Source: Candidatus Fermentibacterota bacterium
GTDB lineage: Bacteria > JAFGKV01
Length of the DNA stretch: 6,733 nt
Assembly (NCBI GenBank): GCA_030620115.1
Contig: JAUXFG010000188.1
Location: forward strand, 1 to 6,733
Reading direction: 5' to 3'
The notes beneath the pieces were generated by a model. That model was not told where the DNA came from, searched no databases, and saw only the letters and a list, made by a program, of their open reading frames with translations. This document shows positions 129-6,733 of the stretch, piece after piece (the stretch's first letter is position 1; each line of letters starts with the position of its first letter). A program made the translations under genes and the position numbers.

Positions 129-1352
129 TTAGAACTTATCGAAGGCGATCATCTCCTCGGGTACCCGGAGTTCGGCAAGAAGCCTCTCTGCCGCTTCGAT
201 CATCAGCGGTGGGCCGCACATGTAGTACTCTATCTGTGCGGGGTCGGGATGTGTCTTGAGATACATGTCGTATGCCACGTCATGGATGAAGCCTTCCGGC
301 CCCTCCCAGTTGTCCTCGGGCTGTTTCTCGCTCAGGGCCACCACAAACTTGAAGTTGGGGAACTCATCCTGCAGAGCCTCGAAATCCTCGGCGTAGAACA
401 TCTCCCTGAGGGATCGGGCGCCATACCAAAAGGTAACTTTGCGCTTGGTTTTCAGCGTACGAAACAGATGTATGATATGCGAGCGCATGGGCGCCATACC
501 GGCCCCCCCGCCCAAGTACAACATCTCCCGATCGGTGTCTTTGATCAAGAAATCTCCGTAGGGGCCGCTAATCGTGATCTTCTGGTCCGGTTTGAGCGCG
601 AAGATATAGCTCGAGCCAAGCCCAGGCGGGGCCTTCTTGACCTCGGGCGGTGGTGTGGCAATGCGGATATTCAGCCTCAGATGCCTGCCCTCGGCAGGAT
701 AGCTGGCAAGGGAGTATGCTCTCATGAGCTGAGGGTCATCGTTCGGCGCATGCAGCTTCCATAGTGCGAATCTATCCCAGGCATCGCGATACTCTCTCTC
801 GACATCGAAGTCCGTGAAAGGGATGTCGAATTCGGGCATATGAATCTGGACATACTGTCCCGCCAGGTACTCAAAGCCTTCTTCGCCCTCCGGCAATTCC
901 ATGACGAGCTCTTTGATGAAGGTCGCCACGTTGTGATTGGAGAGTACAGGGACCACAATCTGTTTGATCTCGAGGTATTCGGGAGGGATCTCCAGCTTGA
1001 TATCTTGCTTCACCTTCACCTGACAGGTGAGGCGAATATGCTCCCGCATCTCTTTCCTCGTGAGCAGACCTATCTCTGCCGGTAGGAACTCGCCGGCTCC
1101 CTCAGGGATCTTGCACTTGCAGTATGCGCATGTTCCCTTTCCGCCACAGCCGGAAGGAATAAAAATATCATGCTGCATGAGGGTGCTGAGCACCGTATCC
1201 CCTGCAGGCGCCACGAAGCTCGCGTCGGAGCCTTCATTTATGTCGATGTGTACATCACCCGTCTGAACCAGCCGAGATTCAGCAAGAACAAGAAGCCATG
1301 ATAGAAGGCCTACTACACCAGAAAGAACAACAACTGCAGAAACCAGCTCCAT
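129..1352 (-). CDS. nqrF: Na+-translocating NADH:quinone reductase subunit F (NADH dehydrogenase, FAD and [2Fe-2S] subunit)
   Basis: This subunit is the electron entry point of Na+-NQR. It oxidises cytoplasmic NADH and passes electrons through FAD and a [2Fe-2S] cluster into the membrane subunits. The 407 residues match the usual length of about 408. One N-terminal membrane helix spans about residues 3-24. A plant-type ferredoxin domain follows, with cluster ligands Cys69, Cys75, Cys78 and Cys110. A ferredoxin-NADP reductase-like domain carries the FAD motif RAYS (211-214), the nucleotide-binding GGGAGMAP (281-288) and CGPP (379-382), and ends in an aromatic residue. Cys80, two residues after the third ligand, is an additional cysteine where I recall Val in the Vibrio protein. 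The ATG at 1352 is preceded by AGAGGT at good spacing. The gene is last in the operon, 10 nt after the nqrE stop. Single-gene relatives such as phenol hydroxylase reductase components are excluded by the membrane helix and the operon context. Confidence 0.98.
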   Translation of the reverse strand: MELVSAVVVLSGVVGLLSWLLVLAESRLVQTGDVHIDINEGSDASFVAPAGDTVLSTLMQHDIFIPSGCGGKGTCAYCKCKIPEGAGEFLPAEIGLLTRKEMREHIRLTCQVKVKQDIKLEIPPEYLEIKQIVVPVLSNHNVATFIKELVMELPEGEEGFEYLAGQYVQIHMPEFDIPFTDFDVEREYRDAWDRFALWKLHAPNDDPQLMRAYSLASYPAEGRHLRLNIRIATPPPEVKKAPPGLGSSYIFALKPDQKITISGPYGDFLIKDTDREMLYLGGGAGMAPMRSHIIHLFRTLKTKRKVTFWYGARSLREMFYAEDFEALQDEFPNFKFVVALSEKQPEDNWEGPEGFIHDVAYDMYLKTHPDPAQIEYYMCGPPLMIEAAERLLAELRVPEEMIAFDKF

Positions 1353-1975: not shown

Positions 1976-2620
1976 TTATATCTCCTTCTCAGGGCCCTGG
2001 CTGGCTTTGACCACCCAGATCAAGAGGCCCAAGACCAGGAAGGCGCCTGGTGGAAGAATCAGGAGCAGCGGAAACTGGCCGTCCATGGCTGCTCTCAGAG
2101 GAGCTGGAAACACCATGATTTCCGTCTGCGCAAGCGTGGTGAACACTATCTTGCCCGTGCCAAGCACTTCACGGACCAGGGCAACAACCAGAAGCACCCA
2201 TGTATAGCCGATGCCATTCCCGAATGCATCCAGCAGGGAGAGCCGAACTGGATTCACAATGGCGAAGGCCTCGGCCCGCCCCATGACAATACAGTTCGTG
2301 ATGATGAGTGCGACATAGGCTCCCATGACCTTTGCCGCGTCCCATGCGTAGGCTTTCAGGATGAGGTCCACAATGATAACGAACGTCGCGATAATGAGGA
2401 CTTCCATGATCATGCGTGTTCGTTTCGGGATGACCTTCCTGAGGAGTGAGACAAGGCCACTGCTTCCTGCGAGCACGAACATGAGGGCGAGCCCCATGAG
2501 AAACGCGTTTTCGAGTCGATTCGTGACCGCCAAGGCGGAACAGATGCCCAGGATCTGGTAGACAATAGGGTTATCGCTTAGGGTTCCCTTCTCAATCAGT
2601 CGCTTTGCGGGTCCGCTCAT
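1976..2620 (-). CDS. nqrD: Na+-translocating NADH:quinone reductase subunit D (integral membrane)
   Basis: NqrD is the second member of the NqrD/NqrE membrane pair that encloses the transmembrane iron centre of Na+-NQR. The 214-residue protein is strongly hydrophobic with about six helices. Its signature stretches are NPIVYQILGICSALAVT with Cys27 and LIITNCIVMGRAEAFA with Cys110, each matching a metal-ligand position known in the family. The basic loop around residues 61-69 and the DAFGNGIGYTW stretch are also typical. The ATG at 2620 overlaps the nqrC stop codon as ATGA (4 nt), and an AGGGGG sequence precedes it. The N-terminus is soluble and short, as usual. RnfE is the homologue in Rnf complexes, but sequence and context favour NqrD. 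Confidence 0.97.
   Translation of the reverse strand: MSGPAKRLIEKGTLSDNPIVYQILGICSALAVTNRLENAFLMGLALMFVLAGSSGLVSLLRKVIPKRTRMIMEVLIIATFVIIVDLILKAYAWDAAKVMGAYVALIITNCIVMGRAEAFAIVNPVRLSLLDAFGNGIGYTWVLLVVALVREVLGTGKIVFTTLAQTEIMVFPAPLRAAMDGQFPLLLILPPGAFLVLGLLIWVVKASQGPEKEI
1982..1987 (-). promoter_or_regulatory. Ribosome binding site deciding the GTG start of nqrE
   Basis: The minus strand reads AAGGAG, then 7 nt containing the nqrD TAA, then GTG at 1974. The motif is embedded in the final codons of nqrD, so ribosomes finishing nqrD could reinitiate at once. It justifies a GTG start over the ATG seven codons later. Confidence 0.75.
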
Positions 2621-3294
2621 GCCTGGCCCCCTTTGTCTGTTCCACTCACCAGATCACTGGCGGCGTACCATTCTATGGCTCGATTCACCATCCCCTGGAT
2701 TCCTTGGCTAGTGATGGTGGCCGAAGTGAGGCCATCTATCTCGTAGGGGCCTTCGGCCAACCCTTCGCTTTTCAATATCTTGAGCCCGGGCACGAGTTTG
2801 CCAACGGAGGCGCGGAATCTGCTCTTGAAATCCTCATCGCGGATGCGCTTCCCCAGGCCTGGAGTTTCCTCATCCCTGTAGATGATCAGACCCCGCACCG
2901 TCCATGTCTCTTGTCCAGGAACTTTTGGTTCCAATGCCAAGAAGCCGCGCATCTCACCCCAGAGACCCTTGCCGAAGACTCTGATGGCTGTGCCCTCGAC
3001 CCTCTCGTCTTTGAAGTATCTGAAGACGTCGAATTCCATTTCCTTGGCCTCTTCCCCATGCACCTTGCGCACGAATTGCCGGTAGTACGTCTCTACCTGA
3101 GCTGCTGAGGCCGAGGCCGCTTTGTTACCGTCTTGATTGCGGACATCCAACGCCTCGAGGATCGCACGTTGCTCATCAATACTCAAATTCCGTTCAATGT
3201 TTGCCAGCACAAATCCACGGACTCCCACAAGCAACACCGCGCATATCGCTCCTATGAGAGTCGTCACGAGTACGGTTCTGATGGGGCTATCCAT
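2617..3294 (-). CDS. nqrC: Na+-translocating NADH:quinone reductase subunit C (covalent FMN, extracytoplasmic)
   Basis: NqrC carries a covalently bound FMN on the outer side of the membrane and relays electrons towards NqrB. The product has 225 residues when started at the ATG at 3294, somewhat shorter than the roughly 257 of Vibrio. I chose this start because GAGGAGGT stands 6 nt upstream; an in-frame ATG at 3336 would add 14 residues with no comparable site. One N-terminal membrane helix spans about residues 7-28, followed by an FMN-binding domain. The GKGLWGEMRGFLAL stretch and ETPGLG (143-148) are family hallmarks. The flavinylation site reads D187-G-L-T-S-A-T193, with Thr193 the expected phosphoester attachment residue. 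Ser191 replaces the usual Gly of SGAT. Attachment would need an ApbE flavin transferase, which is not in this window. The gene overlaps nqrB by 8 nt. Confidence 0.96.
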   Translation of the reverse strand: MDSPIRTVLVTTLIGAICAVLLVGVRGFVLANIERNLSIDEQRAILEALDVRNQDGNKAASASAAQVETYYRQFVRKVHGEEAKEMEFDVFRYFKDERVEGTAIRVFGKGLWGEMRGFLALEPKVPGQETWTVRGLIIYRDEETPGLGKRIRDEDFKSRFRASVGKLVPGLKILKSEGLAEGPYEIDGLTSATITSQGIQGMVNRAIEWYAASDLVSGTDKGGQA

Positions 3295-4387
3295 GCTGGA
3301 ACCTCCTCGAAGTGATGCTGCGGTGAGCGTGATCAAGAAGCGGCGCTACCAGGTTCATGATGAGGATAGAGAACATGACTCCTTCGGGATAGCCCGACAG
3401 GCCGCGGATGAGGAGAATGAGAATGCCGATCCCGATCCCGTATGCCCATCGCGCCCGGTTGTAGACCGGACCAGACACCGGATCAGTGGCCATGAAGAAG
3501 GCACCATATAAGAGCCCTCCGGCCAGCAGTTGGTAGTGGGGAGGCATGAATGTCGAGGGCGCAAGCGTGTGGAGAACCCATCCCAACACGATGATCGTGC
3601 CGAATATTGAAACCGGTATGCGCCAGTTGGCGACTCTGCTGAAGATGACGATGAGGCCACCGATGACCACGAGGATCGCCGATGTGGCGCCAAAGGCATC
3701 AGGCCCCTTTGTCCATAGAAGCTGCAGCCAGTCTGTTCCCACCACTTCCTTGATAGCCACGGTGACCGACTGCCCTGCTGACTGTGCCAGCTTGACTGCC
3801 AGGAGTGGTGTCGCGCCGGTGGTTGCGTCATGACTAAGGCCGGCTCCCAATGCCCCCTGGCCGGGTAAGACCCATCCAGAAGACATGGCCTTCGGGAAAC
3901 TAAGAAAGAGGAAGGCTCGGCCCACCAACGCCGGATTCATGATGTTGTGACCGGTTCCTCCGAACACCTCCTTTCCGAAGAATACGCCGAATATGGCGCC
4001 CGAAGCAACCATCCAGAGGGGAGTGCCTACGGGAAGTGTGAGAGGGAATATGAGCCCTGTCACGAGGAGACCCTCCGCAATAGGCTCCTTCCTGAGGATG
4101 GAGAACATGACCTCGACTAGTCCGCCTGCCACGTAGGAGACGAGGACCACCAACAGGACACGTGGCCCGAAGAAGTACACTGAGCCGAAGAACGCGGGAA
4201 AGAGCCCGATAATGGCCCAGGACATAAAGCGTTTGGCATCAACGCCGTCACGTATGTATGGCGGCCCCTCCGGCGTCTTGTCCGGGCTATAGAGGAAGAA
4301 ATCCAAGGCCTCGACAATGGGTCCGAAAGGACCTTTGCCGTAGGCTTGCAGCATCCTGTCCATCAACTTGCGGAGCACGTACATCAT
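3287..4387 (-). CDS. nqrB: Na+-translocating NADH:quinone reductase subunit B (covalent FMN, membrane)
   Basis: NqrB is the large membrane subunit of Na+-NQR, linked to Na+ translocation, riboflavin binding and quinone reduction. The product has about 366 residues and some ten hydrophobic segments. Typical stretches are IRDGVDAKRFM (45-55), GGLVEVMF (88-95), KEVFGGTGHNIMNPALVGRAF (starting at 139) and FMATDPVSGP near the end. The FMN-threonine motif is D187-A-T-T-G-A-T193. The N-terminus and the loop between the first two helices are shorter than in Vibrio NqrB (about 415 residues), closer to RnfD dimensions. A longer open frame reaches 4489, but those extra residues are basic, non-conserved and inside nqrA. 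I prefer the ATG at 4387, which overlaps the nqrA TGA as ATGA. The adjacent ATG at 4384 is equally possible, with GAGAGG upstream of both. Confidence 0.95.
   Translation of the reverse strand: MMYVLRKLMDRMLQAYGKGPFGPIVEALDFFLYSPDKTPEGPPYIRDGVDAKRFMSWAIIGLFPAFFGSVYFFGPRVLLVVLVSYVAGGLVEVMFSILRKEPIAEGLLVTGLIFPLTLPVGTPLWMVASGAIFGVFFGKEVFGGTGHNIMNPALVGRAFLFLSFPKAMSSGWVLPGQGALGAGLSHDATTGATPLLAVKLAQSAGQSVTVAIKEVVGTDWLQLLWTKGPDAFGATSAILVVIGGLIVIFSRVANWRIPVSIFGTIIVLGWVLHTLAPSTFMPPHYQLLAGGLLYGAFFMATDPVSGPVYNRARWAYGIGIGILILLIRGLSGYPEGVMFSILIMNLVAPLLDHAHRSITSRRFQHG
3301..3308 (-). promoter_or_regulatory. Strong ribosome binding site deciding the nqrC start
   Basis: The minus strand reads GAGGAGGT, a near-perfect anti-16S match, 6 nt before the ATG at 3294 and inside the last codons of nqrB. 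It rules in favour of 3294 rather than the upstream ATG at 3336. Confidence 0.8.
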
Positions 4388-5778
4388 TCGGCCCTCTCTG
4401 CTTCCAGGCGTTTCAGGCCTGCAACGATCTTGCCCATGAGGTCTATCTTGGAAGGACAGACATACGAACACAGGCCGCATTGAATGCACCGATCAATGCC
4501 GTAAAGCTCCATCTCCTCTATGATGTCGGCATCGGCCACTTTGAAGAGGTAGGAGGGAGAAATCCCCCGAGGACAGACTTCTTCACACGCTCCGCACGAA
4601 ATGCAGGGCCGTTCCTCTCCACCCACTTCGGCTTTTGATTCGAATCGTACTCTGGGCAAGAGAGATGAAAGCACTGTACGCGTCCATGAGTGGCGGGTCG
4701 CTGCCGGCATGGCAAAACCCATGAATCGACGCTCGGGCAACGGGAGCGCCACCACATTGTGATAATGAGGCAACAGGGGCTGGTCATCTGTCAACCCCTC
4801 GCCTGCCAAGAGACCACCGGCCACCAGCTTTGACGGCCTGACCAAAAGCGGCTCGAAGAATCCTCCCGCACAAGCCCCGATACGCGTGAGGACCGCGACG
4901 GTATTCTTTGCTCCTTCACCAAGAAGCTCAAGACGGGTCTCAATGAGGGGTCGCCGAGAGGTCATAATCCTCCCCGCGGCCAATACCGATGCGGTATCGA
5001 TGACCAGTATTCCCTCGTTCAGCGGGTTCGTTTCACCCGGGAGATCTTTCTGCAGATGAGCGCAGGCCAAAATCACCGGATTCTCGTATGGGTAACGATT
5101 CGGCAAAGCCTTGATGTGTACTTGCTCGCTCTCCACTCCAGCGGCGCGCCATCGCTCGATCTCTTCTTCTGTCACGGCGATGGACACTGGGGTCCCCGAG
5201 GCGGCGGTTTGCCAGAGGGAGAGCCCTGCTGAGAACAAGGAAACATCTTCTTCTACAGCCCCGATGCCGCTGGAACCCAGGGGAGATGTGGAGAGCCCGG
5301 CGACTACCAGAGCCTTGAGGTGATTTTGTGTTTTTCCCAGAAGCCATCGGCCGATCTCTTCTCCGCAAGCATGGATGACGCCGGACCGGATCATTAAGAG
5401 ACGAGCCGCAGCCGCGTCGGCGGGGAGATCGTATTCCTTCTCCCAGAACAAGTCGTCGCCAGACCTCGCGATCGCGACGCTGGTTGGAGCACGCATACCT
5501 TTCCCGTGCGAAATGAAACGATCGACATGCCCCGTGACTGTGCTGAGGTGAAATTGTCGTGGTGAGATCAGATCATCGGGGACAAGCGGCTGGCCAGTCT
5601 TGATTGGATCGCCCTCAGCAACCAAGGCATCGCCTTTGGGAATCCCGATGGGAATCAATACCTCTGGAGGGAGCGCGGATTCAATCGTTGCTGAGATCGA
5701 ATCAGCCCGGTAGGCGCCGAATCGCATACCACCGGGCATCCTCCATGTGCTTGCTTGAGAAACCTCGCTACTCAACAT
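4384..5778 (-). CDS. nqrA: NqrA-type subunit of Na+-NQR with RnfC-like ends and two [4Fe-4S] motifs
   Basis: This is the cytoplasmic, membrane-associated subunit at the head of the nqr operon; NqrA of known enzymes has been linked to quinone binding. The product has 464 residues. The N-terminus (12-88) looks like RnfC: W-R-M-P-G-G, then a biotinyl/lipoyl-like fold with GDPIKTGQPL (56-65). The centre is NqrA-like, with VAGLSTSPL (159-167) and MGFAMPAATRHSWTRTVL (353-370), which matches the FGWAMPG...TRSFL block of NqrA. The C-terminus carries two complete ferredoxin motifs, Cys392/395/398/402-Pro and Cys431/434/437/441-Pro, which normal NqrA (about 446 residues) does not have. The RnfC glycine-rich NADH/FMN motif is absent. 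The ATG at 5778 follows AGAGGG at slightly short spacing, and a later start would remove the GG motif. RnfC is the alternative name; the downstream genes favour NqrA. Whether the clusters transfer electrons is inference. Confidence 0.9.
   Translation of the reverse strand: MLSSEVSQASTWRMPGGMRFGAYRADSISATIESALPPEVLIPIGIPKGDALVAEGDPIKTGQPLVPDDLISPRQFHLSTVTGHVDRFISHGKGMRAPTSVAIARSGDDLFWEKEYDLPADAAAARLLMIRSGVIHACGEEIGRWLLGKTQNHLKALVVAGLSTSPLGSSGIGAVEEDVSLFSAGLSLWQTAASGTPVSIAVTEEEIERWRAAGVESEQVHIKALPNRYPYENPVILACAHLQKDLPGETNPLNEGILVIDTASVLAAGRIMTSRRPLIETRLELLGEGAKNTVAVLTRIGACAGGFFEPLLVRPSKLVAGGLLAGEGLTDDQPLLPHYHNVVALPLPERRFMGFAMPAATRHSWTRTVLSSLLPRVRFESKAEVGGEERPCISCGACEEVCPRGISPSYLFKVADADIIEEMELYGIDRCIQCGLCSYVCPSKIDLMGKIVAGLKRLEAERAE
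4456..4605 (-). other. Dicluster [4Fe-4S] ferredoxin domain within nqrA
   Basis: This segment encodes NqrA residues 392-441. It contains two CxxCxxCxxxCP motifs separated by a 28-residue linker, the spacing seen in RnfC and other dicluster ferredoxin domains. All eight cysteines and both trailing prolines are intact, so two cubane clusters are expected. As I recall the Vibrio sequence, its NqrA keeps only a single CxxxCP remnant near the C-terminus at the place of the second motif. Confidence 0.85.
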
Positions 5779-6189: not shown

Positions 6190-6733
6190 TCAATCCCATT
6201 CGACCTTCATGCCTCGGCGGGTGGGGTTTCTGATATCGTAGATCAGGATCGAATGCGCCACGAGATGGGTTGGTGGGTTCATCCTGAACCAGGCCAGTTC
6301 CTGCATACGGTTCGGGAAGTGATAGAGGCCCTGCCGATACGTGGCGCTCACGGCATAGACTCCAGGAGGCGGTCTTTTCCTCCCCATGGGCTGACACGAG
6401 AATTCGTACTTGATCCCATAATGCTCCGGCACATCGGACCCGAAGTAGAGGAGAGAAAGCTGCTCCATGCCATGCCTGTTTTGGAACTCTGCCAGCGCGG
6501 GGAGGTCCTGACCCCAATCCAAGTTGCAGTCAACAAGGTAATGATATCCCCGATCCGGCCCGCCGGTCCCAACGTTGAAGTAGGCAAGGTAGTGGGGATG
6601 AATCGTCACGCCTTCCACAATGATGGCCATTGCCAGGAGCAATGAGGAAACTCTAAGGGCTTTTCCCTGTCGCCACCATGCGGAAAGGAGCAGACCCGCG
6701 CCGAGTGCCAAAAACGGATAGATGGGGAGGATA
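6190..6733 (-). CDS. GT-39/ArnT-like membrane glycosyltransferase, C-terminal part (5' end outside window)
   Basis: About 180 residues of the C-terminal end are visible; the frame is open to the window edge. Proteins of this type use a polyprenyl-phosphate-linked sugar and transfer it to a lipid or protein on the outer side of the inner membrane. The fragment begins with LPIYPFLALGAG, typical of the last membrane helices. A second hydrophobic segment covers about fragment residues 29-44. Then comes HPHYLAYFN (45-53) and the diagnostic GY-(x)6-NLDWGQDL stretch (62-77), seen in many annotated phospholipid-carrier-dependent glycosyltransferases. The rest is a soluble extracytoplasmic tail ending at TGA 6190-6192. 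The catalytic N-terminal acidic motif lies outside the window. The gene shares the strand of nqr but is separated by about 410 bp and a terminator candidate, so functional linkage is unlikely. Donor and acceptor cannot be inferred. Confidence 0.8.
   Translation of the reverse strand, partial: ILPIYPFLALGAGLLLSAWWRQGKALRVSSLLLAMAIIVEGVTIHPHYLAYFNVGTGGPDRGYHYLVDCNLDWGQDLPALAEFQNRHGMEQLSLLYFGSDVPEHYGIKYEFSCQPMGRKRPPPGVYAVSATYRQGLYHFPNRMQELAWFRMNPPTHLVAHSILIYDIRNPTRRGMKVEWD

Follow-up and report, generated by a model that had tools for sequence, protein, structure and literature searches.

We investigated a DNA stretch of 6,733 nucleotides (called the window; positions 1 to 6,733 of contig JAUXFG010000188.1, assembly GCA_030620115.1) from a Candidatus Fermentibacterota bacterium, which carries on its minus strand an nqrABCDEF operon, gene A first, of the kind named after the Na+-translocating NADH:quinone oxidoreductase (NQR; NADH, reduced nicotinamide adenine dinucleotide). 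Adjacent genes share a few bases or leave gaps of about 10 bases at most (Table 1). The first gene encodes an NqrA-type A subunit that has the pair of [4Fe-4S] motifs (dicluster) known from RnfC of the RNF complex; a plus-strand reading of the same positions is interrupted by stops.

The A protein presents eight cysteines, C392/C395/C398/C402 and C431/C434/C437/C441, in two intact CxxCxxCxxxCP motifs. A preliminary description of this DNA had placed them at residues 392-441, and the translation of the open reading frame (ORF) and the Pfam dicluster models, which match far above their cut-offs (Fer4_7, 39.6 bits vs 27), bear this out. The Gly16-Gly17 pair that it had noted in an RnfC-like N-terminus was found as well, and so was its NqrA-like block at residues 353-370, since about these residues align with FGWAMPGKNKFSVTRSFL of Vibrio cholerae NqrA, a stretch not present in RnfC. 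The alignment with V. cholerae NqrA runs from residue 53 to the C-terminal end and covers the linker; the protein also aligns with RnfC, most strongly in the ferredoxin domain. The flavin mononucleotide (FMN) loop of RnfC, GxGGAGFPT...ECEPYLTxD, was looked for by alignment in the A protein and was not found, the RnfC loop GMGGAGFPTHVKLSPP...GAECEPYLTADHR being replaced by GVIHACGEEIGRWLLG...LSTSPLGSS.

Whole-protein hidden Markov models scored the A protein about equally as NqrA (NF003761, 126 bits over residues 52-461) and as RnfC (115 and 105 bits). It fails the cut-offs of canonical NqrA (TIGR01936, 77 vs 321 bits; NF003761, 126 vs 450) and those of RnfC (TIGR01945, 105 vs 246 bits; RsxC model, 115 vs 345), and a search of the window's own genome with PF05896 (NqrA) found no match. 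The AlphaFold 2 model of the subunit has a predicted local distance difference test (pLDDT) score of 87, with a low-pLDDT stretch at residues 357-373. Its fold is nearest to that of RnfC from Acetobacterium woodii (9eri), Clostridium tetanomorphum (7zc6) and Azotobacter vinelandii (8ahx), with Z scores of 32 to 34, followed by canonical NqrA with 29.3 over 421 residues, both the RnfC and the NqrA comparison covering more than 410 residues. Compared with RnfC, which has the same two [4Fe-4S] motifs, the window protein lacks the FMN glycine loop and ECEPYLTxD, has an extra linker and is encoded beside NqrF, not RnfB. Canonical NqrA (V. cholerae; TIGR01936, NF003761) shares with it the operon position, the linker and the lack of an FMN loop, but has no cofactors and misses at least six of the eight cysteines. 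Judging from its sequence, with the cluster motifs kept, the FMN loop gone and the NqrA linker present, the A protein is therefore a combination of one RnfC trait (the clusters) with two NqrA traits (the linker and the missing FMN site). Its linker, its lack of an FMN loop and its place on the NQR side of the A-subunit tree make it an NqrA in the broad sense; redox cofactor motifs, which canonical NqrA does not have, are present in the form of the two [4Fe-4S] motifs.

Table 1. Features of the window (positions in nucleotides of the window).
Feature	Positions	Strand	Basis or remark
nqrA-type gene, 464 aa, with the RnfC-like dicluster	4384..5778 (stop included)	minus	ORF; hidden Markov model matches; AlphaFold 2 model
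Residues 133-150, where RnfC has its FMN glycine loop; loop lost	5329..5382	minus	alignments
NqrA-type linker 5' of the ferredoxin domain, residues 349-386, not in RnfC	4621..4734	minus	alignments
First putative [4Fe-4S] motif CISCGACEEVCP, residues 392-403	4570..4605	minus	Pfam dicluster match; invariant cysteines
Second putative [4Fe-4S] motif CIQCGLCSYVCP, residues 431-442	4453..4488	minus	Pfam dicluster match; invariant cysteines
nqrB, 366 aa	3287..4387	minus	N-terminal extension; RnfD-like, without later insertion
Codons of NqrB Gly88-Gly89, predicted quinone pocket	4121..4126	minus	alignment; pocket residues from PMC10643135
nqrC, FMN-binding domain, DGLTSAT flavinylation-like motif	2617..3294	minus	
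nqrD, C27 and C110 for intramembrane [2Fe-2S] cluster	1976..2620	minus	
nqrE, C29 and C123	1363..1974	minus	NqrE equivalog cut-off passed
nqrF, [2Fe-2S], flavin adenine dinucleotide (FAD) and NADH domains	129..1352	minus	TIGR01941 538 bits, cut-off 295

All eight cysteines are found in 49 of 49 dicluster sequences. Because these homologues are mostly only 21-28% identical to the window protein (32-sequence alignment), the conservation of the motifs is, on the alignment, far beyond chance, and the predicted clusters are under selection. A mono-cluster NqrA occurs in one small phylum, in 4/4 genomes (loci L145, L146, L192 and L203 of genomes G209, G339, G068 and G386), where motif 1 has lost cysteines I-III and retains cysteine IV, while motif 2 is complete. 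A 2[4Fe-4S] ferredoxin fold binds each cluster through cysteines I-III of one motif and cysteine IV of the other. The equivalents of C402 and C431/C434/C437 retained in this lineage are therefore exactly the four ligands of one cluster, to which the last cysteine of motif 2 is added. Cluster-free NqrA retains mainly C437 (20/26) and C441 (21/26), both motif 2 positions, which, by their place in the alignment, are fossil cysteines.

The other subunits of the window operon are of the NQR kind. NqrE passes its NCBIfam equivalog cut-off (250.7 bits vs 247.6), as does NqrF (Table 1); B, C and D have their best scores with nqr models, yet stay under the nqr cut-offs. The remaining cofactor ligand motifs are all there, i.e. 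flavinylation-type motifs in NqrC and NqrB, the cysteines of NqrD and NqrE, and the [2Fe-2S] and FAD motifs of NqrF. No RnfB was found among the ORFs and domain matches of the operon. The same genome contains a separate canonical rnf operon with RnfB, whose RnfC retains both the FMN loop and the clusters. Upstream of nqrA lies a partial ORF (6190-6732, minus strand) without a Pfam match; the gene at the corresponding place in G002, a genome of the same family, encodes a PMT_2 family glycosyltransferase.

Membrane-core trees were built from the B, D and E subunits, the A subunit not being used. RNF is split from NQR at 100/100, with the window core on the NQR side, and the dicluster NQRs form a paraphyletic grade between RNF and cluster-free NQR. 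This grade begins with genome G003, then Bipolaricaulota, then a group of Omnitrophota, Bacillota and Armatimonadota, then Brocadiia, followed by the window clade with a group of Planctomycetota and Verrucomicrobiota, and then by Desulfobacterota-type, mono-cluster and cluster-free forms together. A single dicluster clade is rejected on the same data (delta lnL, the log-likelihood difference, of 194; approximately unbiased test, p 1.8e-55) and appears in 0 of 200 bootstrap trees. The length of the NqrB insertion, measured between the HxRD motif and Gly140, follows the grade in its order along the tree: it amounts to 40 residues in 33 dicluster forms, the window among them, and in almost every RNF, to 61 in mono-cluster forms and in those of the Desulfobacterota type, and to 61-87 in cluster-free forms. 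The FMN loop is partly retained in the deepest branches, G003 and Fraserbacteria (GGGKGGFPT, LGKAGFPT), and lost in the window. G003 (locus L033), the deepest NQR branch, has the gene order B-C-D-E-(173-aa ORF)-A-F in place of A to F.

The preliminary description had asked for a phylogeny of NqrA and RnfC, and the A-subunit tree without the ferredoxin domain sets the window protein together with NQR, apart from ordinary RnfC. With the mid-grade position of the window in the B+D+E trees, this agrees with the intermediate stage that it had suggested, and the reading of dicluster NQR as an intermediate between RNF and cluster-free NQR is supported by the sequences. In the A tree the window clade also joined the FMN-less RnfC of Desulfobacterota with a support of 85; we do not believe this grouping, which joins two long branches and does not appear in the B+D+E tree. 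On the reading as an intermediate, the two [4Fe-4S] clusters of RnfC would have been retained after the replacement of RnfB by NqrF and the loss of the FMN/NAD site of RnfC, and the order of loss would be the FMN site, then one cluster (cysteines I-III of motif 1), then the other cluster.

A genome scan with the window protein as single query returned no relatives; they were found by an alignment-based scan of GTDB genomes, which required one Cys motif and was followed by gene-by-gene typing. It yielded 45 loci (window included) whose A subunit is of the dicluster form and falls on the NQR side, all six genes being called in 29, with an atypical F gene in L060. Among the named organisms are Omnitrophota, Planctomycetota (Phycisphaerae, Brocadiia, Pirellulaceae), Verrucomicrobia, Eisenbacteria, Fraserbacteria, Bipolaricaulota, Dethiobacter, Tissierellales, Spirochaetales, Armatimonadetes and Desulfobacterota, including the cultured Desulfoluna butyratoxydans; full nqr operons that combine dicluster A with NqrF were seen in Omnitrophota, Planctomycetota, Eisenbacteria, Bipolaricaulota, Bacillota, Armatimonadota, Desulfobacterota and others. 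In the nearest relative, G002, the gene order is the same, the A subunit is 48% identical and NqrB, NqrD and NqrE are 72-82% identical. Another genome of the family, G001, which is 94% complete, has RNF but gave no match to NQR, which makes the distribution of the operon in the family patchy.

As the patterns of the scan require a Cys motif, its loci are biased towards cysteines, and a motif-independent sample of 386 genomes, picked by kinship only and not by trait, was therefore added. About 39 of them have a full-length NqrA-type match, of which 9 are dicluster (G000, G002, G003, G088, G322, G341, G147, G230 and G384), 3 mono-cluster and about 27 cluster-free; when the window's family is left out, dicluster NqrA is found in 7 of about 37 NqrA-bearing genomes. 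The regions of G088, G322, G341, G147 and G230 all contain A-B-C-D-E and an NqrF-type gene. The NqrF family search misses deep-branching NqrFs such as that of G003 and therefore gives too low a number of NQRs. Databases label dicluster A subunits either NqrA or RnfC, deep members such as G003 and Omnitrophota passing the RnfC cut-off. The term "hybrid subunit" used in the preliminary description would point to an oddity of one operon; the protein is one case of a common, apparently undescribed class.

Among the described systems, the nearest precedent is the FMN-less RnfC noted for the RNF of Desulfobacula toluolica Tol2 (cited in PMC5109826), which shares with the window protein a dicluster without the NADH/FMN module. 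The FMN-less RnfC of Desulfobacterota differs in lying in an RNF operon with a long RnfB (about 700 aa) and in having no NqrA linker. RNF operons with an FMN-less RnfC were seen in Desulfobacterota at L088, L094, L098, L106, L112 and L122, and part of them encode an RnfB of about 700 aa, like that reported for D. toluolica. The dicluster NqrA of Desulfobacterota (e.g. Desulfoluna butyratoxydans, L100) has in common with the window the nqrABCDEF operon, the dicluster and the lack of an FMN loop, but is nearer to canonical NqrA (NF003761: L055 passes the cut-off of 450 with 460 bits, L100 fails with 373), and NqrB of these operons already carries a 21-residue insertion which the window NqrB does not have. 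At L060:6559-14740 (Fraserbacteria), and also at L062 and L065, genes for a Rieske and a cytochrome b6-type protein lie directly upstream of the dicluster A gene. L060 has, where NqrF would be expected, a 267-aa protein that carries a Fer2 domain and two RnfB-type FeS (PF04060) motifs but no FAD/NAD domain, i.e. an NqrF/RnfB-like hybrid, and the gene after it combines Fer2 with a weak cytochrome b C-terminal match.

The NqrB of the window has an N-terminal extension and a Gly88-Gly89 pair aligned with G140-G141 of V. cholerae, both of which RnfD lacks; in V. cholerae this extension holds the amphiphilic helices of the quinone site, and G140-G141 belong to the quinone pocket (PMC10643135). The window's own genome holds a MenA homologue above its cut-off, and a family search for MqnA and MqnD in this genome and three relatives found neither. 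In three phyla, dicluster nqr operons are followed by genes for UbiA/MenA-type prenyltransferases and/or polyprenyl synthetases (L045:10653-12570, L052, L064). These genes and the MenA homologue fit a menaquinone acceptor. From the gene content and motifs, the product of the window operon is probably a Na+-translocating NADH:(mena)quinone oxidoreductase and would represent a dicluster class in which the two [4Fe-4S] clusters of RnfC are kept, and the order of loss given above forms part of this reading.

In such a complex, the electrons from NADH would enter at NqrF (FAD, [2Fe-2S]), go to the [2Fe-2S] cluster of NqrD/E and then to FMN-NqrC, FMN-NqrB and riboflavin, with the quinone pocket predicted at NqrB. 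The dicluster, if assembled and located beside riboflavin as in RNF, would form a cytoplasmic one-electron spur at the riboflavin/quinone branch point. Riboflavin lies 11.7 Å from the nearest RnfC cluster in RNF (PMC9588780) and 11.6 Å from the quinone in NQR (PMC10643135), so that with the dicluster placed as in RNF it would have two equidistant exits. An extra cytoplasmic electron port at NqrA, as put forward in the preliminary description, is plausible. As the FMN/NAD module is lost, the clusters have no known partner; we put forward tentatively that the dicluster swaps electrons with a soluble one, e.g. ferredoxin, either drawing electrons off riboflavin or passing them to the quinone pool with the pump bypassed. 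A three-way redox machine found in many phyla, in which riboflavin in NqrB branches to the quinone and to the NqrA clusters and couples NADH, quinone and ferredoxin, seems rather unlikely; in such a machine menaquinone may, for example, receive electrons from ferredoxin, or the sodium gradient may assist the reduction of ferredoxin while quinone is reduced by NADH.

Several observations weigh against the assignment of the operon to a dicluster quinone reductase. The quinone-site glycine pair is not universal, being present in 27 of 50 dicluster NqrBs, with GF or GL in many Desulfobacterota-type proteins and GA in G002, the closest relative of the window; any other residue at the G141 position is said to block quinone (PMC10643135). 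The search for conserved neighbours around dicluster operons gave no redox-partner gene, cluster occupancy is deduced from the motifs, and the AlphaFold 2 model carries no cofactors. A search for NqrM in the window's own genome was empty, but so was its control search. The polarity, loss rather than gain, rests on RNF as outgroup, though eight ligands are easier lost than gained. The NqrB proteins of L072, L078, L100 and other Desulfobacterota were seen to have in many cases F, L or V in place of the second glycine (V. cholerae G141).

The two clusters may instead be built and serve only structure or assembly, or act as an oxygen or redox sensor, without taking part in catalytic electron transfer, with turnover following the ordinary path from NADH to quinone. 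With the FMN/NAD module lost they lead nowhere known, cluster-free NqrA shares the fold (Z 29), the neighbour search turned up no partner gene, and NqrA has no assigned direct function according to a 2025 review (PMC12174285). However, in RNF the electrons from riboflavin run through the same domain (PMC9588780), and the eight ligands do not vary among proteins that otherwise have only 21-28% identity to that of the window. A stepwise loss that keeps one complete cluster is not predicted by a purely structural role, though not forbidden by it. We hold the structural or sensing reading to be doubtful and rank the electron port slightly above it.

It is improbable that a cluster-free NqrA regained the dicluster by taking the ferredoxin domain of RnfC through recombination, once or repeatedly. 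The rnf genes in the window's own, G002 and G003 genomes are possible donors, but with the cysteines excluded the ferredoxin domain of the window protein shares 24% identity with that of the RnfC from its own genome, compared to a mean of 45% with other dicluster NqrAs; for the same-genome NqrA/RnfC pairs the values are 33% (G002) and 40% (G003). These identities, the grade of dicluster forms on the B+D+E tree and the two fossil cysteines at motif 2 of cluster-free NqrA led us to reject a recent acquisition. An ordinary RNF with RnfB encoded elsewhere and the "NqrF" as accessory reductase is given even less credit and was rejected: the dicluster, the fold nearest to RnfC (Z 34) and the deep members above the RnfC cut-off speak for it, while the operon without RnfB, the TIGR01941 score of NqrF, the separate canonical rnf operon of this genome, which includes RnfB, the quinone-site extension of NqrB and the membrane core with NQR at 100/100 speak against it. 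A decaying gene or a chimeric assembly artefact could come to mind for a draft contig of 6.7 kb in a genome of 296 contigs, and is hardly credible, since the operon type recurs in many independent assemblies; it is refuted by G002.

NqrA is described as being without cofactors by Reyes-Prieto 2014 (PMC4014512), in the C. tetanomorphum RNF paper (PMC9588780) and in the 2025 review (PMC12174285). The loss of the RnfC cofactors has been seen as the result of RnfB loss, preceding the joining of NqrF (PMC4014512), and NQR is held in the published view to have arisen in Chlorobi/Bacteroidota; the NqrB and NqrF of Desulfobacteraceae branch early with Chlorobi/Bacteroidetes, in a position called anomalous (PMC4014512). 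Fe-S motifs in NqrA were not mentioned in the open-access literature searched, subscription journals and supplements lying outside this search, so that an earlier note is possible. That dicluster NqrA is a well-documented common form, which would have spoken against the preliminary description, holds in part: it is common in genomes, but no paper describing it was found; the dicluster NQR is real and common and apparently undescribed as such.

The occurrence of dicluster NQRs across phyla suggests instead that the gain of NqrF and of the quinone site took place with the clusters still present, and that cluster-free NqrA arose afterwards, by a loss nested within the dicluster forms. The dicluster NQR would then show the order in which the modern pump lost its parts, and the database names NqrA and RnfC currently split one complex between two families. 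Since the cultured anaerobe Desulfoluna butyratoxydans carries the dicluster form, the purpose of NqrA is experimentally approachable, and an old question becomes a direct experiment.

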